DNA from: Helianthus annuus
Taxonomy: Eukaryota; Streptophyta; Magnoliopsida; Asterales; Asteraceae
Assembly: GCF_002127325.2 (NCBI RefSeq)
Contig: NC_035444.2
Span: 78,799,392 to 78,863,391 of the forward strand
Length of the DNA stretch: 64,000 nt
Reading direction: 5' to 3'
Numbering within the stretch: position 1 is the stretch's first letter; every line of letters starts with the position of its first letter. Below, piece by piece: positions 1 to 58,008 of this stretch. The translations under genes were made by a program, and so were the position numbers. A model generated the notes under the pieces. The model was not told the origin of the DNA, did not search any database, and saw only the letters and a list, made by a program, of their open reading frames with translations.

Positions 1-339
1 CTGATGTATAAACACTGATTCTTCGTTCCACTGATGTAGTCAACCATTGTTGTTTGAGCAACAGTGCTTTCTCCAAAGGGTGATCAGGCCTTGAATGGGC
101 AGTGCTTAAATTCTTCAGCAGTGCTTGGATTCTGTCAGTAGATTGAGCTTCAGCCTTTAAACATCATCAGTTCTTTAGTAGCAGTTGTTCTATTAAGCAG
201 TAGTTTGAAGTGTATCAGATGCTAGTTGACCATTGTCAAGGGGAAAGCTTAATGTAAACAACTGCTTATTATGAATCCACTGTATTGATCCGGTTTTGGC
301 TTTCATTATCTATTCCTTTGGTAGGGTTCAATCCCAACA
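1..339 (-). repeat. Element B 3' LTR, partial at window edge
   Basis: Matches 28330-28666 with about 18 substitutions. It ends (plus-strand right side) at CCCAACA, where the match to the other LTR stops. The word CAGTG/CACTG occurs 6 times in 339 bp, far above chance. The rest of this LTR is beyond the left edge. Confidence 0.88.
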
Positions 340-356
340 ATCTCCCCCTGGAACAG
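340..356 (-). other. Element B polypurine tract
   Basis: On the minus strand the bases next to the LTR read CCAGGGGGAGA followed by T and the LTR start TGTTGGG. This is the expected plus-strand primer of a copia-type element and fixes the orientation. Confidence 0.8.
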
Positions 357-414
357 ATAATGCCAAAACCCTTCATTATGCTGGATTTTTATTTCTCATC
401 AGAAGTTCCTTAAC

Positions 415-3400
415 TTATCTTTTAAATTCTACTTCAAAGTCTTTGGAACTTGAGTCGTCCTCATCCCTGCATAGTGTAAGTTCAAGGAGATCCTGTAGAT
501 CTTCAACACCAAGGCATAGTGCTTCTTTCCTTGATATGTACTTCACTTCACCAATTGATCTAACCAGGGTCAATACATGGGTCTTTTGATTAGACATCCA
601 CTTTAGTATTTTTGAACCCAATGGGTTTCTTGGGAGAGATTTATTCACTGATGAGTTTGGAGATTTTGGCCTTGTGAAAAGTTGTGAACTTTCAGTAGAC
701 ATTTGTATGAAGGCCATTTTGATGACATCATTTGCTGCAGCTATATCTTCTGTAGTCTCTTTTTCAATCTGCTCTTGTCTTTTCATTTGATCTAGCTCAA
801 TGGCTGTCATGTCTGCTGAAGTGTTTGGTGATGCAGATTTGGTTAATACCTTTTTGACAAGGTTTTGAAGTTTCACTAAGCTATCTTCTTTTAGATCCAT
901 TTTCTTGATGGCTTCTGTAAAGTACTCAACTTCCTTTTCTTGTTCTTCTTCACTGGTCAACAGTTTTCCCTTTTCTTGGTTTATCACAAGGGTAGGGGTA
1001 TCTGCTGATGTGATCAGTGGTTTAGGAGCACTAATTTGCTATTCTAGCTTTTTGTAGTCAGGCTTCTTTGGAGTGTCAGAATCTGTTATCCTCCTTTTCT
1101 TCAGCCTTTCATAAGCCTCATCAGTATACTGCTTTGTCCATTTTGCTATGGCTGTGGTAGTATCCACCTTTGCATCCACCAGCTCCTGCTTCTTTCTTTT
1201 GTACTCAGATGTAAGGTCAGTAATGAGCTTTTTGTATTTGTTCTAGTTTGGAGCTGTTTTCTTCTTGCTTGGATCATTTTTGATCCTTTCAATTCTGTTT
1301 GCCTCATGCTTTAATGCAACTATTGGCCATTCTTCAAACTGTTTTTCTTTCAGCTGGGTAGAATTTTTCTTTCATGATGTATGCAAGATATTCTTTTCTC
1401 ATTTCTTTTCGTAGATCTGCTTTGGGTGGTAAATTTGACATTTCTTTGCTCAGATCACTTGCATAGTCTTCCATCTGTTTGACTTTAGTGAGCAAGAATT
1501 CCATTTTTTCAGAAATGGCTTTGTCACTTTGATCTTCACATTCAAGTTTGGCTCTTATCTTAGCCTGCCTTGCTTTGAGCTTGAGATATTCATCCATATT
1601 TTCTGGGACTATGAAGCCTATGAGTGAAGGAAATCTTCGTTTTGAAGGATCATCCTCAGTGTAGAATTGTGTCATCTCATTTTTTACAGCCTCCAGTTCC
1701 AGTGGATAATTTGCAGCAATAGGATCATATTTATCTTCATCTGCCTGAGTTGTTTTTCTTTTCTTGGTGTAAAACCTTTTTGGAGAAGGGGAATTTGGTT
1801 GTGATATAGAAGTGTTGAGAGCAGTGGTGGATGGTTGACTAACAGCTATTGGAACCACTGGTGAACCTCTGTTGTCATTACAACTACTGATGTGTCAGTA
1901 GATGTCTTCTGCTGTTGAGCAGGTGTTGAAATGGTAGTGATTTGAGTGGTGGAAAGTGTCTGACTAACAGCTATTGAAACAACTGGTGTTTCAACCACTG
2001 TTCTCATTACAACAGATGTTGTAACATCTGTTGTCTTCTGCTTTTTGGTAGGAGGAGATGATGGGGTGGCTGTTTTTGGTGGTGAGTTTGGTTTTGGTGG
2101 TGGTGATGTGATCATAGATGATGATGGTGGTAGGGCAGTGGTTGTGGTGGTTTGTGGTGAGGTGGTGTGTGTAGGTACGACAGCCTTAGTCTGGCTATCT
2201 TTTTCAGGTTCAATATAAATACCATCTTCAATTCCCTTCTTCTTGCATCTGATTTTCTCCCCCTTTTTGACATTATTTGGAAAGGGTTATTCACGAAGAG
2301 GACAGTGGGATGAACCTTTCCAGTGGTGCTTTGTATATGAGCCTTGATAGCTTTGATATCTGATTGAGTATCCTTAAATCTTGACTCCACCATGTTTGTC
2401 AGCATTTGTGCATGTATTGCATGCTGCTGATCAGCTATTTGTTTTTGTTTTTCAAGTAGGGGTTGAATACATTCCATAGCTCATTTGCAGCAGGTGCAGG
2501 TTGTGCAGGTGTTTGAGCTGGAACAGCAGTGGATTGTGTTGTTTGAGCTTTTAACAGCTGTTGCACCATATCCTTTATTTCAGCAACTGATGTTTCAAGA
2601 TTTTCAACTTTGCCCGTCAATTCCTAATATTTTAAATCATCACCCAAGTTAATGGGATCATCTGATTCCCCACCAGCAGTGGTTGTATCAATGTGTGACT
2701 TAGGAAATGAATCCCAAAAGTCATTCATTGATGCCCCTTCTTCTTGGTACTAGGGACTTATTCCTTCAGCACTTGAAAGCCTTTTGAATGTACTAGTGGG
2801 CATAACAAACTCACTGACGGTTCTCAGAGGTGCTATTGAAGAAATTTCCTTCAAGAGAGTCTTATGAATATAACCACTGTCCAAATGTAAACCAGTGGGT
2901 TCAACATTTGTAGTGGCTGCTCCACTTGAACTACTGTCAGGAATTACTTGTAATCCCTGCAGTGTGACCTCCTCAGTTATTTCTGGGATAGCAGAGCTAT
3001 AGACATCAGACCCAGTCACTTGTGGGAGTATACTCTCAGTGATAGGTGATTGAGAGGAACTGGTTTGTGTCTGAGCTATATCAACTGCATGCAACGAAGG
3101 TATTATGGATTGTGGTAGTGTGAGGGGTGAAGATAAGGGTGTTGAGAGAGACATGTCCTTGGGATTAGGACTAAGGAAGATGGATCCAATTGAATCCAGA
3201 GCTTCATATTGTGGGGTCCCTGTGTTTACAACCTGATCCTTTTGTGTGGATGCAGGAGGAGTTTGAGGCAGTGGTGGAGATCTTTCTTCCATCTGCTGTG
3301 AGGAAGTAGCAGCAGTGGTTATAGGTGACATTTGTGTTGTCACGGGCAGTGGCTCTGGGATCTCATCTTCCAGAGGTACCTTTGTTTTGGGTTTGGTGGG

Positions 3401-4276
3401 CTTTCTGGATGTTTTTTTTTGGTCTTTTTGGTAATGGCAGGTGTGGGTTTCAAAGCAATGGTTGTGCTGCTATGATCACCTGGAGCAGTGGGCTCAGCAG
3501 CGATACCTGAGGAGCAGTGTTATCTGCTAAATTCTGCTTAGTCACCTCTGCTTTTGTTTTTGAAGGTGCCAACATTCTAGAGAATGTTTCAGGTGTTAAA
3601 CCATTTATTTTAAAATAAACACCTTGTTTGAGAAAATTTTCATTTTCTTTTCCAAATTTTTATTCAAAATAGTAACTTAGAAACCTTGGAAAAAGCATAA
3701 ATGCTTTGCTATCAACATTTTTCACCAAATCATCAAAGATCTCCTGGGAAAATTTTCATTATTTAAAATAGCATATCCCAGGCATTGGATCTTTAATGGT
3801 ATTTCGTTAAAAGCAGTTGTTTTATTAGAAACACACATCAAAAGAGTGTGAAATAAAAACCTAGGTGCAGAAGGGAAATAACCTTTTTGTAAGGTATCTC
3901 TTTTTGGTTGTTCTGCATACCCCCTATTCAAGAAATCATTTTTCAACTCGGTTTTAGAAAAAGAAGTTTTACCTTTCTGATCATCGACTTTAATCACTTC
4001 TGAAATGGATTGTGGAGAAATTTTAATCGCTTTACCCTGTATCGAGGAGTTGATGGCTATGACAATATCTCCTTGTTTTTCAAGGGTAGCATTTTTCCAG
4101 AACTCTCTCTGGGTTTGTTGGTAAATTGGAGCATCTGCTGTTAGCAAATTTTTGTACTTTGATGCAGATATTATGTCGATGATGGAATCGAAGGTGTGAT
4201 TGGTAGTAGGTTTTGTGAGTAGACTCAAGTAATTGTGAGGGGATTTATATGGGATCTCAATGGGTTCAGCGGCCAT
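415..4276 (-). pseudogene. Long unrecognised element-B gene, broken by stops and frameshifts
   Basis: Consecutive minus-strand open blocks (4276-3722, 3343-2750, 2620-2435, 2477-2112, 2115-1846, 1858-1334, 987-415) run in order and look like one ancestral reading frame of roughly 1,280 codons split by small lesions. The N-terminal block is globular (starts MAAEPIEIPYKSP). The middle is low-complexity Pro/Ser/Thr/Gln-rich. The later blocks are charged and coiled-coil-like (for example around 1450-1650, rich in Lys/Glu with heptad-like spacing). I see no RT, protease, integrase or CCHC motif. It is the only gene between the primer site and the purine tract, so it occupies the place of gag-pol. 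I do not recognise the family; similar ORFs being common in Asteraceae is an impression only. Confidence 0.6.
3722..4276 (-). CDS. N-terminal block of the element-B gene (184 aa, hypothetical)
   Basis: The longest clean stretch of the element-B gene. The ATG at 4276 is the natural start: upstream sequence is a leader and just before it lies a GATTTT microsatellite. The protein is a mixed alpha/beta-looking domain with motifs such as YLSLLTKP, FWKNATL and QSISEVIKVDD. No catalytic signature is visible. The frame ends at 3722 near a likely frameshift, since Lys-rich sequence of the same style follows. Function unknown. It could be a gag-like or env-like accessory protein, but nothing in the sequence proves either. 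Confidence 0.5.
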   Translation of the reverse strand: MAAEPIEIPYKSPHNYLSLLTKPTTNHTFDSIIDIISASKYKNLLTADAPIYQQTQREFWKNATLEKQGDIVIAINSSIQGKAIKISPQSISEVIKVDDQKGKTSFSKTELKNDFLNRGYAEQPKRDTLQKGYFPSAPRFLFHTLLMCVSNKTTAFNEIPLKIQCLGYAILNNENFPRRSLMIW

Positions 4277-5957
4277 TTGAGTGGCGTCTTTGGAAGATGA
4301 AGATGATTTTGATTTTGATTTTGATTTTGATTTGACTTTGATTTCGTCATTTTGATGATGAAGATCAACGAATGTTTTAGTGAAGAAGAGTGGGAAACTG
4401 CTTTGAGAAGAAAATTTTGGAATTCAATTCGACAGTGTGAGCCCCTGTTTGGGTTTTGATCAGGGTTTTATTTAGGGAAAAAGTAAGTGCTGATGTGGCA
4501 GCAGTCACAAAAGATCTGATGGCTAAAAGCTAACCACATGTCAACCTCTAATGAGAAGATGAATAATGGAGGACAGTTGTTTTGAGAGCCACTGATGAAG
4601 CAAATATCAGTGGTTACAACGGTAACAAATGAAACAGTGGGTGATTTTTACTATCAGTGGATAGCATATCAGTGGATAAAACACTGATTTTGAACAACAG
4701 TGCATATCATGAAAATGAAAGAGCAGAGGTTGACTTTCAGCAGTGGACAGTGTTTAAGAACCAGATGTTTGATCACAACAGTGGTAGGAAAATGGTGAGG
4801 TTTTGAAAGGCTTTTACATTAGCAACTGTTAGTGCAACAGTGATTGAACTTTTGACAAATATTTTGAGCATCTGCTTGTTTAGATGAGGGGATTGATTTT
4901 GTCTTGTGAAAACACAATAACATGTCCAACATCTGTTGATCTGCAGGAATGCTATACTTAACAAAATACATTTTAGATGCAAGTAGTCAATTTTAATTTA
5001 TCATCAGTTTTTCATGGAATTTATGTTCGAGGTTTTACCACATTTTTATTATAAGTTTTGAGGCTTTTATAAATTCATGACAGTGGTTTAGTATCCCTGA
5101 TGATGAAAATCTTTTTACTAAGGCTACTCATTTTGTGCCTAATTATCTGAATTAGAACATGAGTATCTCAGTAGTTTAAGATCTGTTAGTAATCAATTTT
5201 TTATCTGTGATAAAACGAACTTGAGTTTGATATGACCTTGACACATGTACCATTTCCTTTTGATCTATTTTTAAGGATAGTAACTTCACACAAAAATAAA
5301 GAAATTACATCCTGACCGGCGATGAAACTTTTACTATCAAAAATGAGTAAAAGTACAAAATGTATTATTCCAAAAAAAAATGAATAATATATCCGGTTTT
5401 ATTTGAGAAGAACACCTTTCTAAGAAAAATAATTAAAGGTTATTTTGAAAATATCATCAAAAAGGATCTGGTAACTTTCCAAATAAGCTCATAATCACAT
5501 CATTCTCAGGTTTCTATGACCATTGTATGGGACCACTTTTTTTATCAATTGATTGCAAAGTCCTCTTTTAAATTTAATCACTGGAGATACTATTGTTACC
5601 CGAATTTTCCTGAATTAATGAATGCACACAGTTGCTTGATGACCATTGTTTCCCAAATTTTGAACTCTTAAGTGTTTTCCATTTATACTCTTTTCTTTTG
5701 ACTTCAAAAGTTTTGAGATAAACACACTTATGAGTTTTTATGATTTTACTTCTTCCCTTTCTACCCTTCCCATTCATAAGTAATGTAATACTTACTGGGA
5801 GGTATTTATTGAAGAAATACTTAATCCAGAATCATTTTACAGTAATGTTTTGAGAGATCTGGCCACATTTGTATTATCAAATCTCACATTACATATGATT
5901 TGGACTATTTTGACCCCTGATTTTCTTAATGTGTTTTAACAGGTTTGATTTGGTCCT
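4277..5957 (-). other. Element B untranslated leader, CAGTG-rich
   Basis: Lies between the primer site (after removing A-outer) and the ATG at 4276. No convincing ORF; the short open frames are AT-rich chance. 4561-4790 contains ten CAGTG/CACTG words in 230 bp. A GATTTT-type microsatellite sits at about 4302-4335. A-outer inserted at its left-hand GTCCT copy (5953-5957). Confidence 0.6.
5953..5957. repeat. Target-site duplication of A-outer, left copy (GTCCT)
   Basis: GTCCT directly precedes the LTR start TGTTAGGGCTGG. The same five bases follow the 3' LTR at 27471-27475. Confidence 0.93.
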
Positions 5958-6694
5958 TGTTAGGGCTGGATTTTTATGACCTATGATCCTTACATGTGAT
6001 CCTTACACGTGATCCTAATCAGTGATCCTTGTTTCTTTGGCAGATAGTGATCCTCAGAAGAGTTCCAGGATCAGGATCACGGAGCAACCTAGGGATCCTC
6101 ATACTAACGATTGTTCTCTTTGAATTTAATGTTGTCTTGCAGGAATTTCGAGTAGGATCCGCTCTTAACAACGTAAACAAGGAACCTGTCACGCTACTTT
6201 GGCATATGCATAATCAAAGATGGACGTTGTGGACAATATGGAAACTCAGCACAATTTAAGGGCGATAATTTAGGCTAGATTTACTTCTATTCCTAAAGGG
6301 GTAACGAGCTAATAGTTAGGTTATTTACCTAAAATACGACCACACACACTTGTATAAGTAGCACTCTTCAACATTCGGAAAAAACACACGACATATTTCT
6401 CACACGCTTTGACACACGATACTATAGTGATCCTTGTACTTAGCTCGTTACCATCCGAAGTTGTAAAAATATTGTTTGTTATATTGAAGCTTGGTGATCG
6501 GTAGTTGCCATCACCCGAGGTTTTTTATGCCGGAAATCATTCATTGATCAAGGGCTTTTTCCTCGTATAAATCCTTGTGTCACTTGCGTATTTTACATTT
6601 AAGTGATCCTTCACTTTGTTCATCATACCAAGCATCATTCCCCGTTTACATAAAGTTTGGTTGCATTATCCTTGTGTGATTTTTGACCAAAACA
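5958..6694 (+). repeat. A-outer 5' LTR (737 bp)
   Basis: TGTTAGGG...CAAAACA, matching 26734-27470 at all but five positions. GATC words at the start sit 13 bp apart (GATCCTTACATGT, GATCCTTACACGT, GATCCTAATCAGT). A TATAAGTA at 6353-6360 is a possible LTR promoter TATA box. Confidence 0.95.
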
Positions 6695-6695
6695 G

Positions 6696-6715
6696 TTTGG
6701 CGCCCACCGTGGGGC
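6696..6715 (+). other. A-outer primer-binding site
   Basis: TTTGGCGCCCACCGTGGGGC, one base after the LTR. It contains TGG, the complement of a tRNA CCA end. The same 20-mer is present on the other strand in A-inner (17976-17995). Confidence 0.85.
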
Positions 6716-7265
6716 AATTGGTGCTTCATTCATAAGAAAGTTTTTCTGTTGGTGATCATTTCGGAAGTGTTGCATGGCTTCATCATTGAAGAATACTTCC
6801 ACAGCGATGTCTACAGTCAATTCATCTAATGGCATTCCACCTTTGCCTCCACCACCAGCTGGATCTCAGAAAAATGCTGAGAAGAGACCAACTCCTATCT
6901 CCTCTAAACCATCATCTTCTGCTCTAACTTCTTCTATTCCCAGTACTAGTGATATATTTACTTTGATTTTGCAGATGAGGGATCATATGCAGCAGCAGGA
7001 TGAAACTAATGACAGGATCCTCAGGGAAATCGGAGATCTCAAAAGGCAAAAGAAAACGGCAGAGGATCATTCCCCACTAATGCCCAAATCTTTGAATTTT
7101 GATACCCCGATGATTACTTCTCAGCCATCAGAGGTCCCAGACGTTCAACACATGTGTGGATCAAGAGGAGTGCATTTCGGCCCAGCAGTAGTGACTCAGG
7201 CGTCAGGATCATATTTCCGACCGGCAGGATCCTACACTCAGCATATGGGATCCTTCATGAGCTTA

Positions 7266-7409
7266 GGATCCTCCTTTGTTCCAGGATCATCCCAGGTTCA
7301 AGGATCCTCCTTTGTTCCAGGATCATCCCAGGTTCAAGGATCCTCCTTTGTTCCAGGATCATCCCAGGTTCAAGGATCCTCCTTTGTTCCAGGATCATCC
7401 CAGGTTCAA
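7266..7409 (+). repeat. 36-bp tandem repeat x4 inside gag (GSSFVPGSSQVQ)
   Basis: Four head-to-tail 36-bp units starting at 7266, 7302, 7338 and 7374, each encoding GSSFVPGSSQVQ in frame and each starting GGATCC and containing GGATCATCC. A-inner has fewer, more diverged units at the same place (about 17280-17410), so copy number varies between sister elements. Confidence 0.92.
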
Positions 7410-7954
7410 GGATCCCCTCAGATACCAGGATCCTTGAAGAATTTGCAAACAGGAAGTCCAGATGTCCATCAAGGAGATTTTATTCCAATGCAAACCATTG
7501 CTTCCGCTGGTCCCTCCATCATCCCAGAATCCCTGCAACAAGGATTCACATCCAATGTTCCTAATTTGAACCCGATGGGAGGTAACACTTTTAATAATTC
7601 TTATACCACTAACCATGGATTCATGCAGGATACAGGTATCAATCATGTTATGGCCAGAGAGCTACAAAAACTGAAGGATATGATATCAAGTGTTCCAGGG
7701 GTAGTCAAACCTATCCCGGAAATTGCAGATGGAAGCCATAAGGTATCTCGTTTTGCACCACCAATCTGTGATGCTGAGATACCCAAAAGATTCCATATCC
7801 CTACTATGAAGCTGTATGATGGTACAACGGATCCTGAGGAACACATAGCACAATACAGGGAAAGGATGGAGATCAATCCAATTCCAGAAAAGCTAAAGGA
7901 AGCATGCCTATGCAAAGGATTTGGATCCACTCTTACTGGATCAGCTCTTAAATG

Positions 7955-7959
7955 GCTGC
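7955..7959. repeat. Target-site duplication of A-inner, left copy (GCTGC)
   Basis: GCTGC precedes TGTTTTGG at 7960; the same bases follow the right LTR at 18717-18721. Confidence 0.92.
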
Positions 7960-8679
7960 TGTTTTGGTCAAAAATCACACAAGGATAATGTAACCAAACT
8001 TTATGAAAACGGGGTATGATGCTTGGTTAATTATGAAAGTAAAGGATCACTTCCGTGATAAAAGATGCAAAGACACAATGATTTATACTAGGAAAAAGCC
8101 CTTGATCAATGTATGATCTCCGGCATAAAAAACCTCGGGTGATGGCAACTACCGATCACCAACTTCAATATAATAAAAATGTAGTTACAACTTCGGATAG
8201 TAATGAGCTGAGTACAAGGATCACTGAGTGTCTAAGTGTTCGAGAGTTGTGTCGTATGTCGTGTGTGTTCTTCCGAATGAAGAAGAGTGGTACTTATACA
8301 TGTGTGGGTGACCTATTTTAGGTAAAATGACTAAATATCAGCTCATTACCCCTTTAGAAATAAAGATAATCTAGCCTAAATTGCTGCCCATAGATCAAGC
8401 CATGTTTCCATATCTCGTACAACGTCTATCTCTGATTTAGTTCTTGCCATATTTGTGAAGACGCGTCCCTGGATCATGATCTTTAGAGCATATCCTGCTA
8501 GATGTTCCTGCAAAACAATATTGTAGTAAGCGAAGGTGACCGTTAGTATAAGGATCACCATAATGTCCCATGATCCTGATCTTGAAGTCCGACTGAGGAT
8601 CACTGCCTGCCAAAGAAACAAGGATCACTGGTTAGGATCACGTATAAGGATCACTTATAGTAAAAATCCAGCCCTAACA
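7960..8679 (-). repeat. A-inner 3' LTR (720 bp)
   Basis: Matches 17997-18716 with three differences (near 8090 and 8594-8597). I counted 15 GATC in 720 bp, against about 3 expected by chance. Ends CCCTAACA on the plus strand, next to the purine tract. Confidence 0.95.
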
Positions 8680-8692
8680 ATTGCCCCCAAAA
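8680..8692 (-). other. A-inner polypurine tract
   Basis: On the minus strand reads TTTTGGGGGCAAT immediately before the LTR. The identical string is at 26721-26733 in A-outer. Confidence 0.85.
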
Positions 8693-8836
8693 TATAAGGA
8701 GTTAATTGTAAATAGACGAGTTATATTTTGTTATGATCTTATCTCTAACGGGCGATTCCAAGAAACTAGCCGTTATGCTCGGACTAGCCGTTATGATCAT
8801 TACGTCACAGATGTGACAATCCCTGCAAATCATCAT

Positions 8837-8844
8837 TATAAATA
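8837..8844 (+). promoter_or_regulatory. TATA box for the A-inner antisense gene
   Basis: TATAAATA followed by GG, about 170 bp before the ATG at 9006. The same motif is conserved in A-outer (26573-26580, minus), about 150 bp before the equivalent ATG. It lies outside the LTR, so the antisense gene seems to have its own promoter. Confidence 0.65.
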
Positions 8845-9005
8845 GGAGATAGGGTCAGGATCAGTTTGTGTTTTAATTCAAGATACACTCTCCTTATATT
8901 CTGCATCGAAGGTTGTCCAGGTATCCTCTTCTTCTCTCTTTCCTTTCTTTCTTTTCTTTACTCTGTTTTTTCTACTCCGTCTCTGTTTCTATTCCGTCAC
9001 GAAAC

Positions 9006-12041: not shown

Positions 12042-15348
<3,307 letters not shown>

Positions 15349-42832: not shown

Positions 42833-42835
42833 GTT

Positions 42836-42848
42836 TGGTATCAGAGCC
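42836..42848 (+). other. Element E primer-binding site (initiator Met)
   Basis: TGGTATCAGAGCC three bases after the LTR. Confidence 0.9.
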
Positions 42849-43389
42849 ATTGGTTATAGTGAACTTGGTTTTAGAAAGGGGAAAAACGTTTTTCATAAAA
42901 CCAGACTATAACCGAACAAATCCGAAATCGACCATGACACTCAGCTCCAGACTGCAAGGTTCGTTTCTTATCTACTATTACATAGTATATCTAGTGTACA
43001 CTTATGTATAACATTACACGTGAATGCACACTTGGCACAACAGTATGAGCCCTTATGTTACCGACCCCTGTTATGTGAACTGTTAGCGTGACACTACCCA
43101 TCGACTATTGTGATTCTTGATCATATAAAACCTTTCGCTTGCTATTTGAACGTGGGGAACCTTTTAGCGCAAGTTAAGAGGCGCTGAGATAAGCATGCAA
43201 ATCGCCTTATTATTATGGGTGCACACATAATAATAACGCGAGGTGCATGCAAGTCCCAGTGAGGCTTAACGAGCATGAGAAGGGTTCTGCCCTATTGTGT
43301 GAAAACTTGGTAGATTGTACATTTCAACGTGATACTTGACCTGTACCTCACTTCGACTCGTAACCTTTTCCCTCTTCTCCCATAGAATC

Positions 43390-46760: not shown

Positions 46761-46895
46761 GGGGACGAAATTCCCTTTCAAGTTGGGGATGATGTGGCAC
46801 CCGAGAATAATTCGCAACACTTTTGATTTATCACTTCACTTCTTGGTGCTTATTTGTCAAATTTCGGGACGAAATTTCTTTCAAGTTGGGGATGA
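46755..46895 (+). repeat. Duplicated purine tract and LTR-start fragment in E
   Basis: AATTTCGGGGACGAAATT, CCCTTTCAAGTTGGGGATGA and TGTGGCACCCGAG (about 46755-46805) is nearly repeated at 46858-46900 as AATTTCGGGACGAAATT, TCTTTCAAGTTGGGGATGA and TGTGACAACCCG. The second copy abuts the true 3' LTR. The first is followed by 65 bp of LTR-like sequence. Confidence 0.8.
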
Positions 46896-49332
46896 TGTGA
46901 CAACCCGAACTTTCGAGGGTTGTAACATTTAAACGAGTGATCCTAGCTCTTCGTTAATTCTCTCCTACGTGTTACATGTTCCGTACTATAATATCCTGTT
47001 AAACGCTAGTAACTTTTATAAACGTGTCTAACGTGTAACGTATCCGAGTATGCTTGTGAGTGTGTCAGATTTCCTTAATTCTTTTATCTCGGCCCTACAC
47101 TCGCTTAAGTTCGGCCCACACCATTTAAGCCTACAACATTAAAACCCAGTTAACATATTTTTTGGTGTCTCAATCTGATCTCGGCCCAAGATGGATCACC
47201 GGCCCATTTAGCGTTATCTGGGCATTATAATGGCATGTTACGTGACATCTCTATATTCCAAAATCTGCGACACAACAAACCCTACTCCTTAAAACTTGCG
47301 ATCGGCAGGAATGGCCCCCTCTCGTGAAGCTGTACGTTGTGTTCATCTTGGACCCTGACTCGTTCGGTTAGTATAAAAACACTTGTTATAAATCTGTTAT
47401 ATGATCACGACTATGTGTGAACTTGTAAATAGAATTGTACGAATAATCATGGAAGTTTAGGTTGACACTCCTGATCTTCGCATAACTGGTATTTGATGTT
47501 GCTACTTGGTTCGATTTACATGAGCATGAATCAAAGTGGAATGATTGATATATTGTTTGAATTGAATAAGTAAATGAAGTTGTCCACTAAATTAGCACAT
47601 GCCCAACAACCGGTTATGATATGGCAATGGCTTTAGGGGTCCAATAGTTGATGGTAGGTGGTCTGACAAGTAGATAACCTGGAACAAAAGTGGGCGGCCA
47701 TGTGTGTAGTCTCAATCAAATCAGACAAAGTGGAGAATTCTAATAATATTGTCAGTAACTTAAAAGACTTTATGTGCATCATGTCACATGTTAATTAGGT
47801 GGCTTATTATTTTGATATGCAAGAAATCTGTGTGCGATGCCTTGACTTTTTTTTTTGAATGGATTCATGTTTATAATTTCAACCATATGTATTGCAATCT
47901 GAATGCATTATGGTGTGTATTGGAATGGTTTAGGGTTGGGTTATACAAATGGGTATTTGACTCCTGGTACAAAAAAATAAAGTGGGCTGCACGTGTAGGG
48001 GGTAGTTGGGCCTGAAGAAACGTATTTGACTTGTGGGCCGAGTACAAAATGATTCCTGTGTATGCACGGTTAGGATAGATTAGATTGATTAAGGTAATAG
48101 TAATAATTGTTGAGGTGATTCTAATCAAATGGTTGTAGAAAGGACATGTTGTTCAATATTCGCTTTGATTTCATTATACCGTTACTGTCGATGATAATGG
48201 TGTTATGTATTAGATAAATAGATCACATGTATTGTGTATGGTAGCATGGTAACTATTCTATGAAAATTCACAACATATTAGAGTGGGCTGAAACACTTGT
48301 GTGAGTAACAATTGAGTTGCATGTTAACTGACTTGAGTCTTATTCTCTTGTGATTGGCAAACTCGTAAATGTAATAAAATAAAACATATGTGTACGACCC
48401 TAGCTTGCAATGTGAATGTGTGTCGGTATTGATACTACATGTTTGGTCGTTGTTGCTTGAGCAATACGTGTGACTATATACGAGGATTTTGAATTCATGA
48501 AACTGACTGTATCTGGTAACTACGATAGGGTTTGATGGACCAACTATTTAACGAGCATTTAACTTAACCGAGCAAACCGAAGGTGAGTTCATCTCTTGAG
48601 CATGCGTCCCGGTGGTTGGGACAGTCAGTGGGTATCCTGGGATGGATAAGTCTTTTGGGTAAAAACGGGAATGTTGGATAATATACTCTTCCTATCACCT
48701 TTAAAGTCCCTCCGTGTTGTTTGGTTACCTGGGTTGTAACATGGTATTAGTTAGTAGCGCTACTTAGGTTTGGCAACCTCACCCCGTACCTGGGAGGACG
48801 GGTGTTGAACTAATGACCTAGTCATGACCAATGCTTTGATAGGAGCATTGGAGAAAGGGCAAAATAATCAGAAGCCGTCTTGTATTGGGGTATTATCAAC
48901 ATTGTTTTCAACATTACTTTCGGAATTAAATTCAATGGATTAACTAAACACTTGGTAATCAACGTTTTCGTAAAACTATGAACTCACCAGCGTTGTCTGA
49001 TACACTTGTTGCATGCTCGCAGGTCGTTAGATTATATGGATTTGGAACTTGCTGTCTGAAGTAGCTGGAGTGGTCATGGGTCGTGCTGATTGGATACGAA
49101 TGCTGAGTTTATTGATTACATACATTTATTTTGAAACAGTTAATTATGTTTTCTTTTATTTGCTTCCGCTGAACATGTCGGTTTTCACTCAAACTTATTG
49201 ACGATGTTTTTCAGTAATAAATGATGATTTTATTTATAACTTGAACGGGTTCAATGTAATTAGTGGCTCGTTGTCGGTACATCACACGCCTAACAGGGAC
49301 ATTCCCTAGGTGGTATTTTTGGGGGTGTGACA
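46896..49332 (+). repeat. Element E 3' LTR (2437 bp)
   Basis: Matches 40398-42832 with about ten changes including an A-run and a T-run indel. Followed by TSD CATCA at 49333-49337. Confidence 0.94.
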
Positions 49333-49466: not shown

Positions 49467-49917
49467 TGTTATCTCGTTTTTCGTGCCCTGATCTATCTAA
49501 TTTAATACAAGACGAAGTCGACAGACATATGCATCAACAAGAAGAATTGTTGGGATCTCATTCGAATAAAAACAACTTCTTTGTTCCTGATATTACCTCG
49601 AACTCTAGCGAAGACTTGGGCGATAGTCGTCCTTGTGTCGATTGTGCCGTGAAGGACTCTCCATCGACTTCGTTCGGTGCATACGTAGACCTGAGTGATT
49701 CGGCATACACCTTCTTTAACGAAAGCCGGGAAAGGGTTGGACTTGTCCACCTACATTTAGCATAGGAATCACCCTCACCGACAACCTCTTGCGTTCTCGT
49801 CTTAATCTAGAGCAATTAAGGTATCTTAGACACTTTGGGGTTGTTCCATCCAGTAAGGACCCATCCGATCCGGATAAGTTCCTAAAAAATAGACGAAACT
49901 TCATAAACAGCCTCTAG
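49467..49917 (+). pseudogene. Element D ORF1, 3' half, frameshifted
   Basis: Homologous to 33910-34260 of C: conserved DSRPCVDCAVKDSPSTSFGAY and DLSDSAYTFF, then a frameshift near 49728 (one frame ends GLVHLHLA at 49765), and in the next frame ITLTDNLLRSRLNLEQLRYL and LRHFGVVPSSKDPSD to a TAG at 49915-49917. The 5' half with the zinc knuckle is removed by the F insertion. Confidence 0.7.
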
Positions 49918-50521
49918 ACACGGGGCCATGTACAGGTTAATATGCCCCTGTGTCCACCAAAAGATTCCTTTCTGACTTTTTGTCAGAATACGGACAAAAT
50001 GTGTCAGGATACTGTCTGCACACGGGGCCGTGTCCAGCCGACACGGGGCCGTGTGCAGCGTGCTGTCATTTTCTATAAATGCAGCCAAGAATCCTGCACA
50101 TTTGGACCATTCCAGGGACATAGATTTGAGAGGATCTTCACATATACCATCCTAGGTATTTTCTAAAAGAAGGTTCTAACAACCATCTTGTCCTTTCATC
50201 TTTTGTCCATTACCTTCTTCTCTATTTCTTTTACCTCAACACCTCCTTTAGAGCTTGAAATTATCATGATTCCAAGCTTTATTGTGATGTTTGTTAAGAT
50301 TTTGTTCAAGGAATCTTGTTAAAAATAAGTTTTGCAACATTGTTTTAAGTTATTTTTGCTAAAAAAAGCTTTAAAAGTTGGAAAAATAATTTAAAACTCC
50401 GAGATTCTTTGTTCCAAAAATCTGCAGAAAGGTGAACACGGGGCCATGCTCATTGAGCACGGGGTCGTGTCCGAGGTTACTGTTTCATTAAAATAAACTC
50501 TTTTCCATTTATTTTCGTAGA
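49918..50521 (+). other. Element D intergenic region with CACGG doublets
   Basis: Two doublets near 49915-49960 and 50020-50060 plus one at 50430-50475; the rest AT-rich. Same positions as in C. No gene. Confidence 0.6.
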
Positions 50522-50965
50522 ATGTCAAGCCAAAACAGTGGAACTTCTTTTGCGCACTCTAGAAACAGTTGAAGGGAAAGAAAGTCTTCAATTGAAACAA
50601 CTTTCGTACGCTACGTAATGGCATTACGTGAGGCGTTGGATGAGATGACATCGGTAGAGGAGGTCCTCATAGACCTTATAAATTATCTTACGGTGGGGTT
50701 GGAAAACAGTTTTCAAGAAATCAACCTCTTGCACCAGAGGTTGAACATTCTTGTGACACCTCCCATGGAACCAATCCTCCCTCAAGAGGATTGGAACCTA
50801 GCACTTGGAGTCAATAATCCTACCGGATGGGATGACATTCCAGTGGAGTCTCCTCTTGAAGATCTACAAGAAGTCCCGATGGAGGTTGCACCCCCTCAAA
50901 CCGATGCCAATGAGCCCGCCTTTCTTCTCCCAAGGGAGATAGAGGAATGGCTCGCCGACGTGTGA
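50522..50965 (+). CDS. Element D ORF2, coiled-coil protein split by TGA
   Basis: ATG 50522 (MSSQNSGTSFAHSRNS), TGA 50570-50572, then open in the same frame to the stop at 50963-50965. An internal ATG at 50618 (MALREALDEMTSVEE) could start a 115-residue protein with FLPREIEEWLADV at the end. The residues align with C ORF2, including the coiled-coil LHQRLNILV and the C-terminus; the TGA is at the equivalent codon. Function unknown. Confidence 0.55.
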
Positions 50966-52909
50966 GGGGCCCATGTCCAGAGGAAAAAGTTCTTCGAGCC
51001 GCATCCAACCGAGAGAATTATCTAATCGGAAATTTTGCTAATAAAATAAACTTTAGGCTAGAACTTCTTGGTTTGAACTTCTTGTGTTTCTTTTGACCTA
51101 TTTATCTAAAGTTTTAAATTATTAGGAATATTATGTAAGTTTCTCTATTAAATGGAATGAAGATTTTAGTTAAATTGGTGTTTGGATGATGTTGTAATGG
51201 GTAAACACACTCGGGATAGTGAAGGATACCAAGGGAAACTTGAACCAGCACCCCATGCAAAAAAAACAGGGCCATCCGACAAATTTTTCTTCATTACAGC
51301 AAGTTCAACACGGGGCCATGCTCACCCAACACGCCCCGTGGCCAACCATTTGCAGAAAATGCTCAGTTCAGGTAACTGGACACGGGGCGTGCTCACTGAA
51401 CACGCCCCCGTGCCCAGGCTTCTGTTTCTTTTTACTAATTTCTGTTCCTGGCAATCTGAACACGGGGCCGTGCCCGGACACCACGGGGCCGTGTCCAGAC
51501 GCCCAGTAACATAAATTTTTGCTTTTCACACCTTTTTACACATTCAAACAAGCTAAAAACTTATTTTTGGGACACATTGAGGACAATGTGTAATTTAAGT
51601 GTGGGGGGGGGGGATACTAAAACTTTGAATCTTGCAAGTCCTAATTACAAGCATTACACAAAACTCTATTGGAACCGCTAATCACCCCAATTGTTTTCAA
51701 AAAAAATTTCAATTTTTTTTACTTGTCTAGGTTTGATTTGGGAATTTCAAATTCTAAAAAGGTTTTTTACAAATTTACAACCGATAGCGTCGTGATAAAA
51801 AGAAACAACATAAGAAAATTATGAAACGGCATGACAAGTTTAGTTAAAATTTGATTATATATACTTGATCACATAAAAACCCATTCCCACAAAAAAATGA
51901 GTTTTGAGCCTTTATTGAGCATACAAATACATATCTTTAAACTAAATGCTCATTTTTCGTTTCTTGTGTGAATAGCCGCTTGGTTGTTACGACTCTAGAA
52001 CTTGCCACGACGATACATTCCCGGTCCTTACCAACTTAAACCCGAGTAAGTAAATGATGGAGGCATTAGGACTAACTGTTTTTGCTGCACCATTATTTTT
52101 TTTACCACCTACCCAAAATCCCCCTAGTTAACCCCTTTGAGACTAAACCTTTTCATTTCTTAACCCAAAACAAACACCCTTTTACCCACCAAAACCCTTT
52201 TTTATTTTAAACCCTTTGTTTTAGTAACAAGCTCGGTTTTTCTTATGACTTCCTTGTCAAAAAAAAGAAAAAAAAAAAATGAGGATGAAGCTAAAAGAAA
52301 TAAACAAACAAGTCTATCAAAAATAACTTTGTTTGAAGAATGACTTCATCAAAATAAAAAGTTACAGAAAAAAATAAAAAAAATAAAAAAATAAAAGGTG
52401 TTACGAAAACCGACGCTTTTTACGCCTTTCGCCCTTTTACTAACCACTAACCCAACCACCTACCTTTAACCCAAGCCTAACCCTTCACCCCAAAAGTCCT
52501 CTTGATATTTACAAAGGTGTATGTATAGTTAAAAAGGAGGAGGATTGATTGCTTGGCAAGCTTATGGTAGGAGTAAGTTCCATGCCACTCTCGAGTGATT
52601 CACTAAAATACAACTTCGGCCGAGTGTTGAGTGATCCCCCGTGAGGTATGTGAACTTGTATATAAATGGAATTTTAAAAAGGCATGTTATGCCCTAATAA
52701 GTAATTTATCTTATGTAACGTTTTAAATAAATCATGACGAATAGGATTGTAAATAAATAAAAATAAAACTTAACTAAGAATCTTGGAAATCCCGACACTC
52801 TATGACAAGCCCAAAAACCTTCTCTTCTACCCATTCCATTTGGGAGTGTAAAGCCACATTATAAAGGGTTTTGCTTAAGGACAAACAAAGATTCAAGTGT
52901 GGGGGTATT
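50966..52909 (+). other. Element D non-coding region with two purine tracts
   Basis: No gene supported; the open frames 51182-51514 and 51219-51509 read through CACGG doublets (51305, 51378 and 51458) and are not credited. Purine motifs: 51575-51614 (GAGGACAATGTG, then AAGTGTG and a G-run of about ten) and 52872-52909 before the LTR. Confidence 0.6.
51575..51614 (+). other. Internal second purine tract of D (possible central PPT)
   Basis: ATTGAGGACAATGTGTAATT, then TAAGTGTGGGGG; mirrors the LTR-proximal tract at 52872-52909 and the internal tract of C. Confidence 0.6.
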
Positions 52910-54634
52910 TGATATGTGCAAAATGCAACATATAAATTACATATGGCATAAAACTAACCCCTTTTTTAGTACTAATGTTGGAAAAGGTGTGTTTTTGTCT
53001 TCCTTTCGTATTTTCAGGATTAAATGAGCTCAAATGAACAAAAGAAGCCAAAAGGCAGCTAAATCTAGCATAAATACAAGAAAAGGAACAAACGTGGCAT
53101 GCCCGACCCCCCGACAGCATCTTCCGAAGCAAAAACAAGAGAACAGAAGGCTGAACACGCCCTGTGCTGAGTGAGCACGGGGGCGTGCCCAAGTGTCTGT
53201 AGAAAAGACAAAGTTGTAGAAGCTTCTATCACCCACCACGGGGGCGTGCCCAGTGGACACGGGATGGTGGTCAACTCTAAGATTCGCAGAATCTAGGGAA
53301 ATCTTGATATACGCTTCTGCACACGGGATCGTGCACAGCGGACACGGAGGCGTGGTCAACTAATGCAGACAAACTGCAATTAATGAAGAAAGAGAAGGAG
53401 GATGGACACGGGGCCGTGCCCGAGCTGCTGTTCAGGCTATAAACAGGGGTGCTTGGCTCATTTGCAAACCATCCCTTGGCACACCACCTCTCTCACACTT
53501 CACCCACCCACCACCACCATCACAACACCATCATCCACCACCATCATCCATCATAGAGTGTGTGAGTCATCTAGGGATCCAAGATTAATCGTCAGAGTTC
53601 TTAACAATCAAAGGCCATGTTTGCCTAAGTCTCATACATCACTTGGTGAAGACAAGTGTTTAGTGTAATACTTTTTATTTTTAATCTTTTCGCACTTTTT
53701 ATTTGGTTATGTATTAATGACTTTAATAACTAGTTTCTTATGTTGAAGGTGATTCTTCCTTATCGTTTGTCCGTGGTGTCTTGGCATTATTTTACTGTCT
53801 ATATAAAATAAAAGATTTTCACCATTCATATCTCCACGGTCTATATGGAGATATGTTGGCTACTTGGTCGGGGGTTAAGGGAATGGTTTGGTAAGAGTCT
53901 TGCCTTGTTCAGTGTATAGATCCTGCAAGGACCTGGGTCAAATTTAGTAGGACCTCCTTCAATACCCACCGGTATTGGATGGCGGGGGTCCAAACTTTTT
54001 GATCCCCTCATATGTAAGCTACTATTAAAACTTTAACCCGACTACTTAGGACTGTATCCCTGCTGACTCAGACTACTTAGCCGAGGGTAACGTCACCTCC
54101 AAAAGAGGGGCCTACCACATTATGCATTAATAACTAAATTAATCATCTTTCAATAATCCGACCCTTTAGGATTGTATCCTTGCTAACTCAAACTACTGGG
54201 TTGAGGGTAACATCACCTTCAAAAGAGGGGCCTACTACAATAACTAAGATAATCTCTTAAAAAGTGCAAAAGTGCGGAAATAATCAAAGGTTACCACTAC
54301 ACATGAGTCGGATACAAGTGATTCATCTTGTCTATCTGTTTTTACTTTTATTTTATTTTTCAGCATTTTAGTTAGTTTTATTTTTCTAGTTTAAAAACCT
54401 TTTTCTAACTTTTGATTTGATTAGAAGTTGAGGATAAACAGGTACTAAAAGCTCTTGTGTCCTTGGACGACCTCGGTATCTTACCGGCACTATACTACGT
54501 TCACGATGCGTGCACTTGCCCATATGTGTGTTTAGTGTTAGTAAATATCGTGATTTATAAATTTAAAACTTGGCTAAAAAGTGTTAAAGGGCTTAAAATA
54601 TACATCAAAAATATATCACACCTAACGCACATCA
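52910..54634 (+). repeat. Element D 3' LTR (1725 bp)
   Basis: Starts TGATATGTGCAAAATGC and ends ACGCACATCA; homologous to both C LTRs throughout, clearly more diverged than those are from each other. Preceded by the purine tract AAGTGTGGGGGTATT. CACGG doublets near 53150, 53235, 53325 and 53403. Confidence 0.9.
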
Positions 54635-56030
54635 ATTTGCAATATTGGTTGTACAGATGCAATTGAACCTGAAACGTTTGAGAAGAAGTGACAAGAAATA
54701 ATGAGTGAATTTGGTCTTATACATAATATTTGGATAGCAACTAAGTTTGGCTTAAGATCAATGTGGATTCCTGCGTTTTATCATGATGAGCATATGTCAG
54801 GGCTTATGCGTACTACCTCAAGGTCTGAAAGTGAAAATCAATTGTTTATTCTTGTTTCAAACTCGCAATTGACTCTTGTTGAGTTTTTTTACTCATTTCG
54901 ATACGACAATTGAAGCTAAAAAATATACACATAAAAAAACGATCATGATAAGCGTAATACAATACCTAATTTTCGGATTGATTCACCTCTTGAACGACAT
55001 GCTGCTAAGTTGTATACCAGGCAATACTTTTACGCTCAAGATGAGATACTTGCCAGTTTTGAAATATATTGTTTAGTTAACGTCAAAGAAGAATAAGAGT
55101 ATGCAAGGTTCTTTATTAGAGACACTTCAGCTTTTGGAAAAGGTTTCTTGGAGGTATTTTTTTTTTTTAAATTCTAGTACCTATCATATATGTAGAGTAA
55201 TTATGTAAGTAAATTTGTATTATCTATCAGTAGAGTAATATTATCTATTTGTACAGTAACAAAGAGTTAATACTACTCTAATTTCAAAAGTGTCATTTTA
55301 TTCACAACAAAACATATATGTATAGTAATTTGGTTTATTTTTTATAGGTACTAGCTAAATCTGATGATGATTTTTTTGCTTAATGTACTTGTAAAAGGTT
55401 TGAACAATATGGTTTGTTATGTCGACATGTTTTCCTTGTCATTAGAATGTTTGAAATAGAGGTAATTCCTGAAAAGTATATTTTGAGGTGTTGGAAAAGG
55501 AAGCAGTCACAAACAGAGCCAATTGTTCTTTTTTTTTGTTGAAGATTGTACGTGAGATTATGTTTGCTAGCAAATGCCTTTGTAGTCGATATTTTTCAAA
55601 TAATGAAGAATTGATCAAGCTTAGATATCAACTAAAAGAAATGATTGAAAAAGCAGATGAGAGTGGTAAGACTAGACCAATTTTGAAGAAAAAAGATATG
55701 TTAGCTTCTCTTTTTGGATATAATCAACCATCAACCTCAACTGTGAAACTTCATCCTAGTACTATAAAATATTTTTACTTTCTGATCTTTTATTTGAAAA
55801 AAAATAAGAAAAAGGGCCATGGTTCACAAAGGAGAATTAAATCTAAAAAGAAAAAAAAAACAGCCAGTTGTGTTGGGAAAAGACATCGAGGATGCAGTGT
55901 ATGTAAGAAGCTTGGTTATGATACTTGAACTTGCCAGTGACTTTTTGGTCAAGTTGGAGAGAGTGCAGTGTCTAAAGGAAGCTGGCTTATTATATTTGAT
56001 TTTTTGTAAAATAGCTTTTTAGTGTTTGAT
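54635..56030 (+). pseudogene. FAR1/FHY3-like (MULE-type transposase-derived) relic, C-terminal half
   Basis: Begins mid-protein at the D insertion. Blocks in order: IWIATKFGLRSMWIPAFYHD and GLMRTTSRSESENQLF (54730-54850); after a frameshift, DSPLERHAAKLYTRQYFYAQ (near 54980-55035); an AT-rich break 55150-55345 (intron or decay); SWIM-type zinc finger CTCKRFEQYGLLCRHVFLVI (near 55387-55445); ILRCWKRK; then 55540-55930 coiled and basic, with CSVCKKLGYDT. Stops and frameshifts throughout. These are the C-terminal MULE transposase and SWIM signatures of FAR1-related proteins (family knowledge). Whether it was a host gene or a transposon is open; the surrounding repeats of GTAGAGTAAT suggest a transposon. 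Confidence 0.75.
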
Positions 56031-56167
56031 ACTAAATCTACTATCATCGATCTAAAGGATTTTTGGATTTGCACTTTTTATACTTGAATATAGTTTGATT
56101 GTAGAGTAATTATCTTGATATGTAGAGTAATTCATGAATAAGAGGAATTGTTGCTTAATTATACAAA
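56031..56167. other. Flank of the FAR1 relic, GTAGAGTAAT words, up to the Mutator MITE
   Basis: AT-rich with TTGTAGAGTAATTATC and ATGTAGAGTAATTCAT; ends with TTATACAAA (56159-56167), the left TSD of the MITE. Confidence 0.6.
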
Positions 56168-57861
56168 GAGTAAATTACAAGTTTTGTCCTTTATTTTTAT
56201 ACCAAATTTCAGGTGGTGTCCTTTGTCTTTAAAATTGATGAATTTTGTACTTAAAGTTTCAAAATTCTGCACGTTATGTTCTTTGTATCTAACCCAGTTA
56301 GTTTTTTGGTTAAATTTAGTCATGTGACTTGCATGTGAGTGCATTTTTATCCTTTCACCTTTACAGGGACTAAATATATAAATAATTCAAATATCCAACC
56401 ATTATTTAAAAGATAAGAGATTTAAATAAATAAATGTTATCTATCTCTCTCACTATACATCACTTACCACCACACCACCACCACCACCACTTACCACAAC
56501 CTGCTTCCATCACCTCCAACCCTACCCAACCATCTCTCTCCCTCCTAGTCGTAATCCACATAAACATAAACCCTGAAATCAAACCTGCAACAAGATTATC
56601 TTATACTCAAAATCAAACAACTTAAAGGTTTTCTCGACAATTTCAAACAACTTAATGGTTTTCTGTTATGAATTTGTGAAATAATCATGAAATTGGTGTA
56701 ATTTCATGTTCAGTGTTAGTTGTTAAAGCTTTGTTTTCTTCCTAAATTAGGCTTTTTAGCTTCAATTTCTCTTTTGCAGGTGCAAATATACTCAATTTCA
56801 CAAGCTTTTGGTGAATTTGCCATTAATTTCGAAGGTGAGCTAACTGTCAAATGTAATAAAATTCAGAAAAAGTTAACCGTATATTGTTAAGAGTTTTTCT
56901 AATTTTACAATAAAGCATCTCTGCACCTCTAATTTGGGGAAAGTGCTCTTAACAAAACTTGTTTTTCCCTCCCCTTAAATTATCAAGTTAACGTGCTTAA
57001 CTGTAAACATATATGAGTTGTCAAATTTTCATCATTTGTCCTATTACTCATCAAACTTGCTTTATCTTGGTAAATTCAGAGGGCATTGATGCGTTGACTT
57101 GGAGTTGGGGTTTTGATGCAACGAATCAATATTTTCATCAAAATCATAAAAATAGATCAGTTCACAACGATTTCGAAGAATCGTGCAACATAAATGTGAG
57201 AACGATGATGTATAACAGAGAGTGTTGGAGGATGGTGGCCGAAGGTGGTTGGGTGTCTATAGAGAGAGAGAGAGAGAGAGCTAGAGAGTAGAGAGAGAAA
57301 AAAGGGAGTTTATATTATATTAATTTTTGTTTATTTGGTAACATTTTTATAATTAAATAGGTAAAAGACTAAACTACCCTTATCTAATATGATTTAACAG
57401 AAAAATCTAACTGGGTTTGGGTAAAAGAACATAACATGCAGGATTTTAAAATACTAAGGAGCTGTTTGTTTACCTCTTAATGAGGCTCTTAATGGTTCAG
57501 ACCTCTTACTCTTACTGGTTCAGCACTTAATGGTTCAGACTGTTTGTTTCACGAGCAGATGTATGATGGTTCAGACATTTGCCTCGGAATAGCTAAGATT
57601 TATACAGAGTCTGAATGGTTAAGACCTCTAATCTGAATTGGTCAGACATTTGCCTCTGAACGGTTAAGTATTATAAAGGCTCTTAATGGTTCAAACCTCT
57701 TCCTGGTTCAGCACTTAATAGTCCAGACCTCTTACTGGTTCAGCACTAACCATTCAGATATTGCCAAACAACCCCTAAGTACAAAACTCATCAATTTTAA
57801 AGACAAAGGACACCGTCTGAAATTTGGTATAAAGATAAAGGACAAAATTTGTAATTTACTC
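56168..57861. mobile_element. Mutator-like MITE with long terminal inverted repeats
   Basis: Left end GAGTAAATTACAAGTTTTGT and right end (reverse) GAGTAAATTACAAATTTTGT; the arms match for about 100 bp without a break and continue to about 200 bp once the Tourist insertion in the right arm is removed. A perfect 9-bp TSD TTATACAAA flanks it (56159-56167, 57862-57870), as expected for Mutator-type elements. The interior has no transposase; it includes a GA microsatellite (about 57259-57298) and weak open frames (56434-56625, 57013-57291) I do not credit. Confidence 0.85.
57458..57775. mobile_element. Tourist-like (PIF/Harbinger) MITE, copy 1
   Basis: Starts GGAGCTGTTTGTTTACC and ends GCCAAACAACCCC, flanked by TAA on both sides (57455-57457, 57776-57778). 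Rich in the word GGTTCAGAC. Inserted in the right inverted repeat of the Mutator MITE, whose left arm shows the uninterrupted version. 318 bp. Confidence 0.85.
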
Positions 57862-57870
57862 TTATACAAA

Positions 57871-58008
57871 TATAAGTAAACGTGCAACAAAAGCAGATTG
57901 AGATGTATAAGAAGAGTAATTATACAGTAAAACATTAAATTATAGTAACTATGTAAAAAGAATGATCATTTTATAGATTTAGGGTAACTATTGAATAAGC
58001 AAGGTAAT
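57871..58008. other. Resumed FAR1-element flank
   Basis: AT-rich, again with AGAGTAATTATACAGTAAAA-type words like 55190-55330 and 56100-56150, suggesting it is the same old element on the far side of the MITE. No gene. Confidence 0.45.

Follow-up and report, generated by a model that had tools for sequence, protein, structure and literature searches.

A family-specific short word spread through a sunflower Retand-type retrotransposon points to a site maintained by selection

Introduction

Bacterial DNA uptake sequences are short self words that recur across coding and non-coding DNA, at about one per kilobase, and are tied to transformation. Plant transposable elements also carry short motifs of their own. 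VANDAL transposons of Arabidopsis contain a motif of 9 bases, YAGTATTAY, in many copies, partly in tandem, which is bound by the element-encoded VANC protein (PMC5735166, PMC10398659). Sireviruses carry element-specific palindromes in high copy number, with a CGG-CCG core in 12 of 13 motifs (Tnd-1 is without it), clustered in the long terminal repeat (LTR) and upstream of env (PMC2829016). Palindromes of this type have been described as cis-regulatory and small-RNA-rich (PMC10760457). Among Retand elements, antisense TRP28 open reading frames occur in 97% of recent clusters, with DNA binding predicted and function unknown, and the sunflower clusters Helianthus annuus 4 and 5 have sizes of 719-720 (LTR), 9310-9313 (internal region) and 3327-3343 (POL-3'LTR) and two tandem arrays (PMC11963269). 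A nuclear product was noted for maize Grande (PMC7264820). In sunflower, Retand shows local dips in CG methylation, weak CHH and high CHG methylation, and other lineages dip too (PMC12844716). Here we analyse a 64-kb stretch of Helianthus annuus DNA (NC_035444.2, positions 78,799,392 to 78,863,391; "the window"), in which the word AGGATC (reverse complement GATCCT) recurs throughout an LTR retrotransposon family that we call A.

Results

The A word is enriched about tenfold and is specific to family A

Self-comparison and LTR pairs show LTR elements nested in one another across the window. The sample for family A is two alignable copies, A_outer and A_inner, and one relic, A3, with these features:

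5958..27470, + strand: A_outer, Retand-type Ty3/gypsy element as judged from LTR identity (99.3%), flanks and a reverse transcriptase (RT) domain, split by A_inner
about 5958-6696 and 26733-27470: A_outer LTRs, target duplication GTCCT
within 20427-21332: A_outer RT domain
7960..18716, - strand: A_inner, family A, nested in the A_outer gag (LTR identity 99.6%, flanks, Pfam domains)
7960-8679 and 17996-18716: A_inner LTRs, target duplication GCTGC
15352..17955, - strand: A_inner gag frame (Pfam Retrotrans_gag)
12793..15348, - strand: A_inner pol with RT, ribonuclease H (RNase H), RVT_3 RNase H and integrase zinc domain (Pfam)
17252..17469, - strand: 18-bp tandem array in gag, built on the A word (A_outer equivalent 7265-7434)
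11416..11532, + strand: 23-bp tandem array between pol and the 3' LTR (A_outer equivalent 23939-24076)
9006..10641, + strand: A_inner antisense gene, from reading frames, database proteins (P0001, P0005, P0013) and the ratio of non-synonymous to synonymous divergence (dN/dS)
24887..26431, - strand: A_outer antisense gene, exon 1 from 26431, last-exon frame ending near 24887
57779..62182, + strand: A3, diverged relic of an A-related element, with a 3' LTR starting near 58009 and an antisense gene

Family A contains the domains RVT_1, RT_RNaseH, RVT_3 and Integrase_H2C2, with gag in the preceding frame and the integrase core in the next. The additional RVT_3-type RNase H we take to be a mark of the Retand (Tat) branch, and on its domains A is a Retand-type Ty3/gypsy element. 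Its region between pol and the 3' LTR is about 3.4 kb long and holds the antisense gene. The gag and pol of A_inner form one frame parted by a single in-frame stop codon (15349-15351, - strand). In A3, a 126-bp tandem duplication (99%) at 58841-59095 lies at the start of the antisense gene and doubles the ATG region.

The initial annotation named GATC as the word of this family, and its counts were reproduced: GATC occurs 15 times in each A_inner LTR, where about 4 are expected from the dinucleotide-shuffle rate scaled to 721 bp, and 10 times in antisense exon 1. GATC alone is enriched over dinucleotide shuffles (135 against 56 expected in A_outer, 147 against 61 in A_inner), but the same shuffles single out AGGATC/GATCCT as the best word, and AGGATC[C/A][T/C] describes it better. 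With both LTRs counted, AGGATC/GATCCT occurs 117 times in A_outer (9.2 expected) and 113 times in A_inner (10.6). With one LTR and the tandem arrays excluded, the counts are 88 against 8.8 in A_outer, 88 against 9.7 in A_inner and 20 against 2.3 in A3, which holds 22 in total. The enrichment is thus about tenfold, with P from about 10^-52 to 10^-84.

A logo built from 230 A sites reads AGGATC followed by C (50%) or A (43%) and then T (55%) or C (29%). Among the 18 one-mismatch neighbours, AGGATA ranks top (91 against 18.9, 4.8-fold), with AGTATC at 2.7-fold and ATGATC at 2.5-fold; changes at word positions 4 and 5 give 0.4- to 1.1-fold, at or below expectation. Specificity is also seen in longer forms, AGGATCAC occurring 50 times against 1.0 expected and AGGATCCT 43 against 0.8, compared with 2 against 2.1 for AGGATCTT. 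The word is specific to the family, as the initial annotation had proposed: 252 copies of AGGATC lie in the 25.9 kb of A and A3, and 19 in the remaining 38.1 kb of the window. Within A_inner, words per kb number 10.4 in the LTRs, 9.8 in gag-pol, 8.3 in the open parts of the antisense gene and 13.9 across what remains of the 3' region; the 40-bp leader has none.

The A word is conserved between copies, with sharp edges

With gaps counted, the two copies, A_inner and A_outer, diverge by about 15-18% (83-85% mutual identity), compared with 99.3-99.6% identity within their own LTR pairs. Many of the counts below take both directions of this one alignment, and both LTRs, and are hence not all independent. 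In the long aligned piece, AGGATC was identical in the other copy at 69/85 and 69/83 occurrences, against 582/1365 for hexamers of the same composition. In the short piece it was kept at 24/28 and 24/33 (comparison hexamers 180/353). Over all pieces with the 18-bp array excluded (196 occurrences, both directions), 81% were conserved against a hexamer mean of 41%, which ranks AGGATC first of the 224 hexamers having at least 20 occurrences.

Substitutions in word columns were fewer than a trinucleotide-matched prediction in the LTRs (10/216, 38.7 predicted), in gag-pol (14/400, 38.8) and in the 3' region (24/434, 71.5). The footprint, taken without arrays, shows mismatches of 15% at position -1, then 7, 3, 4, 2, 3 and 5% across the word, 9% at +6 and 24% at +7, against a background of 14.9%. 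Its edges are sharp, and its shape is similar in gag-pol and outside it.

Sites have also turned over. With both LTRs and the arrays counted, 93 sites are common to both copies, 20 are found in A_inner only and 23 in A_outer only, which suggests that gain and loss of the word are ongoing. Eighteen of the 22 words in A3 fall in DNA that blastn does not align to A_inner, and of the four alignable ones three are identical there. A3 thus holds the word at other positions, while its antisense exon 1 is only 42% identical to that of A_inner (139 codons).

The word is held at silent sites within coding sequence

Synonymous codons were shuffled 1000 times per frame. The A_inner gag has 36 words against 9.4 by codon shuffle (21 against 5.2 without the 18-bp array), and pol has 20 against 6.2; none of the 1000 shuffles reached the observed count in either frame. 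At silent third positions of gag-pol where the amino acid is kept, the copies differ at 7/92 positions in words and at 405/1625 outside them (P 4.5e-5); without the 18-bp array the difference is weaker but holds (7/69 against 397/1587, P 0.004). Amino-acid differences were alike in and out of word codons, both in gag (7/80 and 86/783) and in pol (2/44 and 48/802). In antisense exons 1 and 4, silent sites differ at 1/18 against 109/235 for A_inner words (P 0.0004) and at 2/21 against 108/232 for A_outer words (P 0.0009). Collectively, these comparisons point to the A word being a short site maintained by selection, present at about ten per kb over the whole element and written on top of the protein code.

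The antisense gene is a candidate source of a reader

The A_inner antisense gene has about four exons, at about 9006-9578 (frame open to 9617), 9666-9813, 9895-10111 and 10228-10641, their joins inferred by comparison with database proteins. Its dN/dS is 0.04 in exon 1 and 0.08 in exon 4, where dS values of 1.96 and 1.43 are near saturation. The predicted protein has a conserved N-terminal part; by eye it also shows a basic KKRK stretch, a part resembling a coiled coil and an acidic end. Its relatives number 105 matches. Those named by organism are from Helianthus, as are the relatives of the protein of family B described below, with the exception of one partial Salmonella record (P0128) across both sets. 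An AlphaFold model has a mean confidence (pLDDT) of 69 and a partly confident core, with block means of 76-97 over residues 31-120. PF04195 matched 1 of 45 aligned sequences, and weakly (E 0.065); the gene may be a TRP28 relative that is too diverged for this profile.

In the interval from the 3' LTR to the antisense gene, a TATA-like box, TTATAAATAG, at 8836-8845 (+ strand) is possibly part of the gene's own promoter. Silent divergence between the A copies is 46% of third positions in the antisense exons and 25% in gag-pol (8877-9623, + strand, compared with 25817-26542, - strand). This suggests a separate history of the A 3' region, for example by recombination between subfamilies.

Families B and C/D have words of their own

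The initial annotation held that every repeat family in the window is saturated with its own word. Genuine words specific to their families exist in A, B and C/D; for "every family" the claim is too strong. The support is strong for A and good for B and C/D, local only for F and absent for E, and the words of the FAR1 relic and the miniature inverted-repeat transposable elements (MITEs) are few or tandem. The features of these other families are:

1..5956, - strand: B, LTR element interrupted by A_outer; left LTR 1-340, cut by the window edge
27473..28667, - strand: remainder of B; 5' LTR about 27887-28666 (ends by eye), primer-binding site TGGTATCAGAGCC
3725..4423, - strand: B open reading frame, PF20167 (Transposase_32)-related
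29334..36587, - strand: C, LTR element; LTRs 29334-31039 and 34884-36587, primer-binding site TGGCGCCGTTGCCGGGG near 34876
49572..54642, + strand: D, inverted relative of C in which the word of C is also present
39716..39960, - strand: F palindrome cluster ATTTCGTGCGAAAT beside a copia-type gag, resuming at 49333-49571 past the E insertion
38947-39327: F gag (Pfam Retrotran_gag_2)
40394..49332, + strand: E, Ty3/gypsy-type, inserted in F (Pfam Retrotrans_gag, Ty3_capsid, zf-CCHC)

In B, CAGTGG occurs 29 times against 2.9 expected (dinucleotide shuffles, one LTR, no arrays) and extends to CAGTGG(T/A)T. There are 31 copies in the 7.2 kb of B and 14 in the other 56.8 kb. The ten CAGTG/CACTG of 4561-4790 in the initial annotation were found again, with about 0.6 expected at the scaled shuffle rate. 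Codon shuffles of five B frames gave CAGTGG counts of 1 against 0.3, 3 against 0.32, 2 against 0.31, 5 against 1.15 and 0 against 0.14, and 20 of the 31 words lie outside those frames. The B LTR pair is 94.7% identical; two of the four right-LTR words (at 28371 and 28557) are absent from the left LTR, an outcome that fits an absence of selection after insertion. A Pfam scan of four B frames gave no gag or pol domain. The B open reading frame matched PF20167 at 5.1e-7 and 30.2 bits, under the 45-bit cut-off, and PF20167 is precomputed in 26 of 63 homologues of its protein. The B primer-binding site is presumably of the tRNA-Met type.

In C and D, CACGGGG occurs 15 times each, against 0.4 and 0.3 expected (dinucleotide shuffles, one LTR, no arrays). 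The form in C is CACGG-2 nt-CCGTG, in the LTRs and the internal region; CACGGGGCCGTG or its reverse complement occurs 10 times in C, both LTRs counted, and 5 times in D. The window has 71 CACGG in the 12.3 kb of C/D and 29 in the other 51.7 kb. Between C and D, CACGG is kept at 36/52 occurrences against 54% for other CG-containing 5-mers, a rank of only 30/225. The footprint over CACGGGG has 0-10% mismatch, with a background of 13% and flanks at 13-33% (left) and 8-29% (right). Selection for a family-specific site, one of the processes suggested in the initial annotation, gains support in A from silent sites, footprint and first rank, and less strongly in C/D from the footprint. No pol domain was found by Pfam in the three C frames scanned. 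We take the C/D primer-binding site to be of the Athila type.

E served as an internal negative control. No saturating word is present: the best 6- or 7-mer reaches 10^-3.8, uncorrected for thousands of words; GGGCCGA looked better when both LTRs were counted (8 against 0.33). The internal region of E is short, about 4 kb, and no accessory protein like the A antisense product was seen among its frames of at least 90 residues. The F word is enriched solely in the palindrome clusters and not in the remainder of F, a copia-type element presumably of the Sirevirus lineage. ATTTCG/CGAAAT occurs 10 times in 39716-39960, one fewer than the 11 first reported, with 7 further in 49333-49571. Over the whole window, GTAGAGTAAT has 4 copies and GGTTCAGAC has 7; the FAR1 word amounts to 4 copies, and MITE words lie partly within tandem repeats.

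Discussion

The A word is enriched throughout family A, and its sites are constrained between copies. A protein-binding site would be the simplest cause of this constraint. We tentatively favour a reading in which the word is a selected recognition site, its reader is likely a protein, with the antisense product the best candidate, and its role is to mark the element as self and counter silencing. AGGATC[C/A][T/C] sites would be held by selection through the LTRs, gag-pol, the antisense gene and the spacers, and would be bound by a sequence-specific reader, for which the basic stretch and coiled-coil-like part recommend the antisense protein. Binding along the entire element, chromosomal or as cDNA, would mark it as self and keep it expressible, the likeliest route being that silencing is countered, as VANC proteins do for VANDAL transposons. 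We infer both this reader and this purpose by analogy. New copies would inherit the sites, gains and losses would follow, and tandem arrays would arise on the word. In C/D, and perhaps in B, a similar arrangement may exist with another word and another putative reader. The wider proposition, that antisense-encoded readers of a self word coating the whole element arose independently, with different words, in A, C/D and perhaps B, seems to us possible but rather doubtful. Since CHG methylation is high and other lineages also dip, the methylation study neither supports nor refutes anti-silencing (PMC12844716).

Several observations weigh against this reading. It rests on only two alignable A copies, and the short integrase piece has 2 words against 0.84, reached by 206 of 1000 codon shuffles and so not significant. 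Foldseek comparison of the antisense protein with the PDB gave nothing below E 6, A_inner antisense exon 1 had no PF04195 match, and PMC11963269 lists no TRP28 for the two sunflower clusters that A_inner fits by size. A profile comparison of the A antisense protein with the B protein detected no relation, and the structure model of the B protein is poor (pLDDT 50). VANC21 binds non-coding DNA, whereas the A word is also found in coding sequence. Orientation counts here too: in the 3' LTR and 3' region, counted once, sense GATCCT was conserved at 25/26 (inner to outer) and 24/26 (outer to inner), and sense AGGATC, which is rarer, at 4/8 and 5/9. In gag-pol, sense AGGATC was conserved at 7/14 in one direction, compared with 8/9 in the other.

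The orientation contrast in the 3' LTR and 3' region has P 0.007 and 0.03 (other hexamers 30-34%), and over all regions the two directions give P 0.001 and 0.24. Such a bias is unforeseen for a strand-blind site, and leaves room for an oriented DNA site or a role in RNA. At the RNA level, the word could be bound on transcripts of either strand, or could pair with its complement and so condense or co-package RNA. The dominance of sense GATCCT, 92-96% conserved in the 3' LTR and 3' region, fits this, as do predicted folds in which 78% of word bases are paired against 56% elsewhere. We consider it improbable nonetheless, as folding energy is close to that of shuffles (mean z -0.6 over 22 windows; correlation with words 0.1), A3, palindromes included, leans the opposite way (sense GATCCT 8, AGGATC 14), and gag-pol has both orientations plus the palindrome, with palindromes conserved at 9/10 and 9/9 and sense GATCCT at 7/9 and 7/9 (other hexamers 48%). 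The site might instead belong to a host DNA-binding protein and be exploited over the element's whole length as a repeated enhancer or chromatin boundary. All of the constraint evidence fits this equally; AGGATA and GGATA words are enriched too, so that a looser host motif is possible, and Sirevirus palindromes have been discussed as regulatory cis elements (PMC2829016, PMC10760457). A word density in gag-pol that is close to that of the LTRs (9.8 and 10.4 per kb) would be unusual for an enhancer, and the A, B and C/D words differ; we regard a host site as somewhat unlikely.

Word-templated gene conversion, raised in the initial annotation, or word-templated recombination would spread the word and preserve it, and the tandem arrays do contain it. 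Such a process finds no support here, because a base or two beyond the word conservation is already down at the background level, and 18 of the 22 A3 words lie outside alignable DNA; we think it very improbable. Composition, codon usage, peptide repeats or tandem duplication suit the words of the FAR1 relic and of the MITEs and some of the gag array, and B was codon-shuffled only frame by frame, with small counts. As an account of the counts as a whole we give this explanation almost no credence: the A, B and C/D words survive dinucleotide shuffles without arrays, and in A the excess over composition, already asserted in the initial annotation, also withstands codon shuffles of gag and pol, where this explanation is refuted, and is joined by constraint at silent sites. 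One common process for all families, another early suggestion, was not shown, because E is wordless, F and MITE words are local or tandem, and the C/D and F palindromes are Sirevirus-like (PMC2829016).

Should the favoured reading of the A word as a self-recognition site hold, the antisense TRP28-type open reading frames of Retand elements would gain a concrete ligand, and sequence-specific self-recognition, so far described for a single class of DNA transposons, would also apply to retrotransposons that abound in a large plant genome. Silent sites in retrotransposon structural genes can, on this evidence, hold a second code.

Comparison with known systems

The statement in the initial annotation that no description exists needs qualifying: VANC targets (PMC5735166) and Sirevirus motifs are close precedents. 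The literature searched yielded no case of one word that runs the full length of an LTR element, its coding sequence too, and is under constraint at silent sites. For Retand, the consulted portions of PMC11963269, term search included, gave no family word. A_inner agrees in size with Retand clusters Helianthus annuus 4 and 5, which that paper lists without TRP28, and nonetheless has a conserved antisense gene (PMC11963269).

The C/D word CACGG-GG-CCGTG resembles Sirevirus motifs in its CGG-CCG core, its many copies and its place in the LTR, although the C/D primer-binding site is, as we assume, Athila-like. F is copia-type with clustered palindromes next to gag, but is without the CGG-CCG core (ATTTCGTGCGAAAT). 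Sirevirus motifs are clustered, whereas the A words are dispersed everywhere. To bacterial DNA uptake sequences the A word is analogous in distribution only. VANDAL elements are Mutator-like DNA transposons, whereas A is an LTR retrotransposon; as in A, a short motif proper to the family is present in many copies, and related VANDAL families use other motifs.

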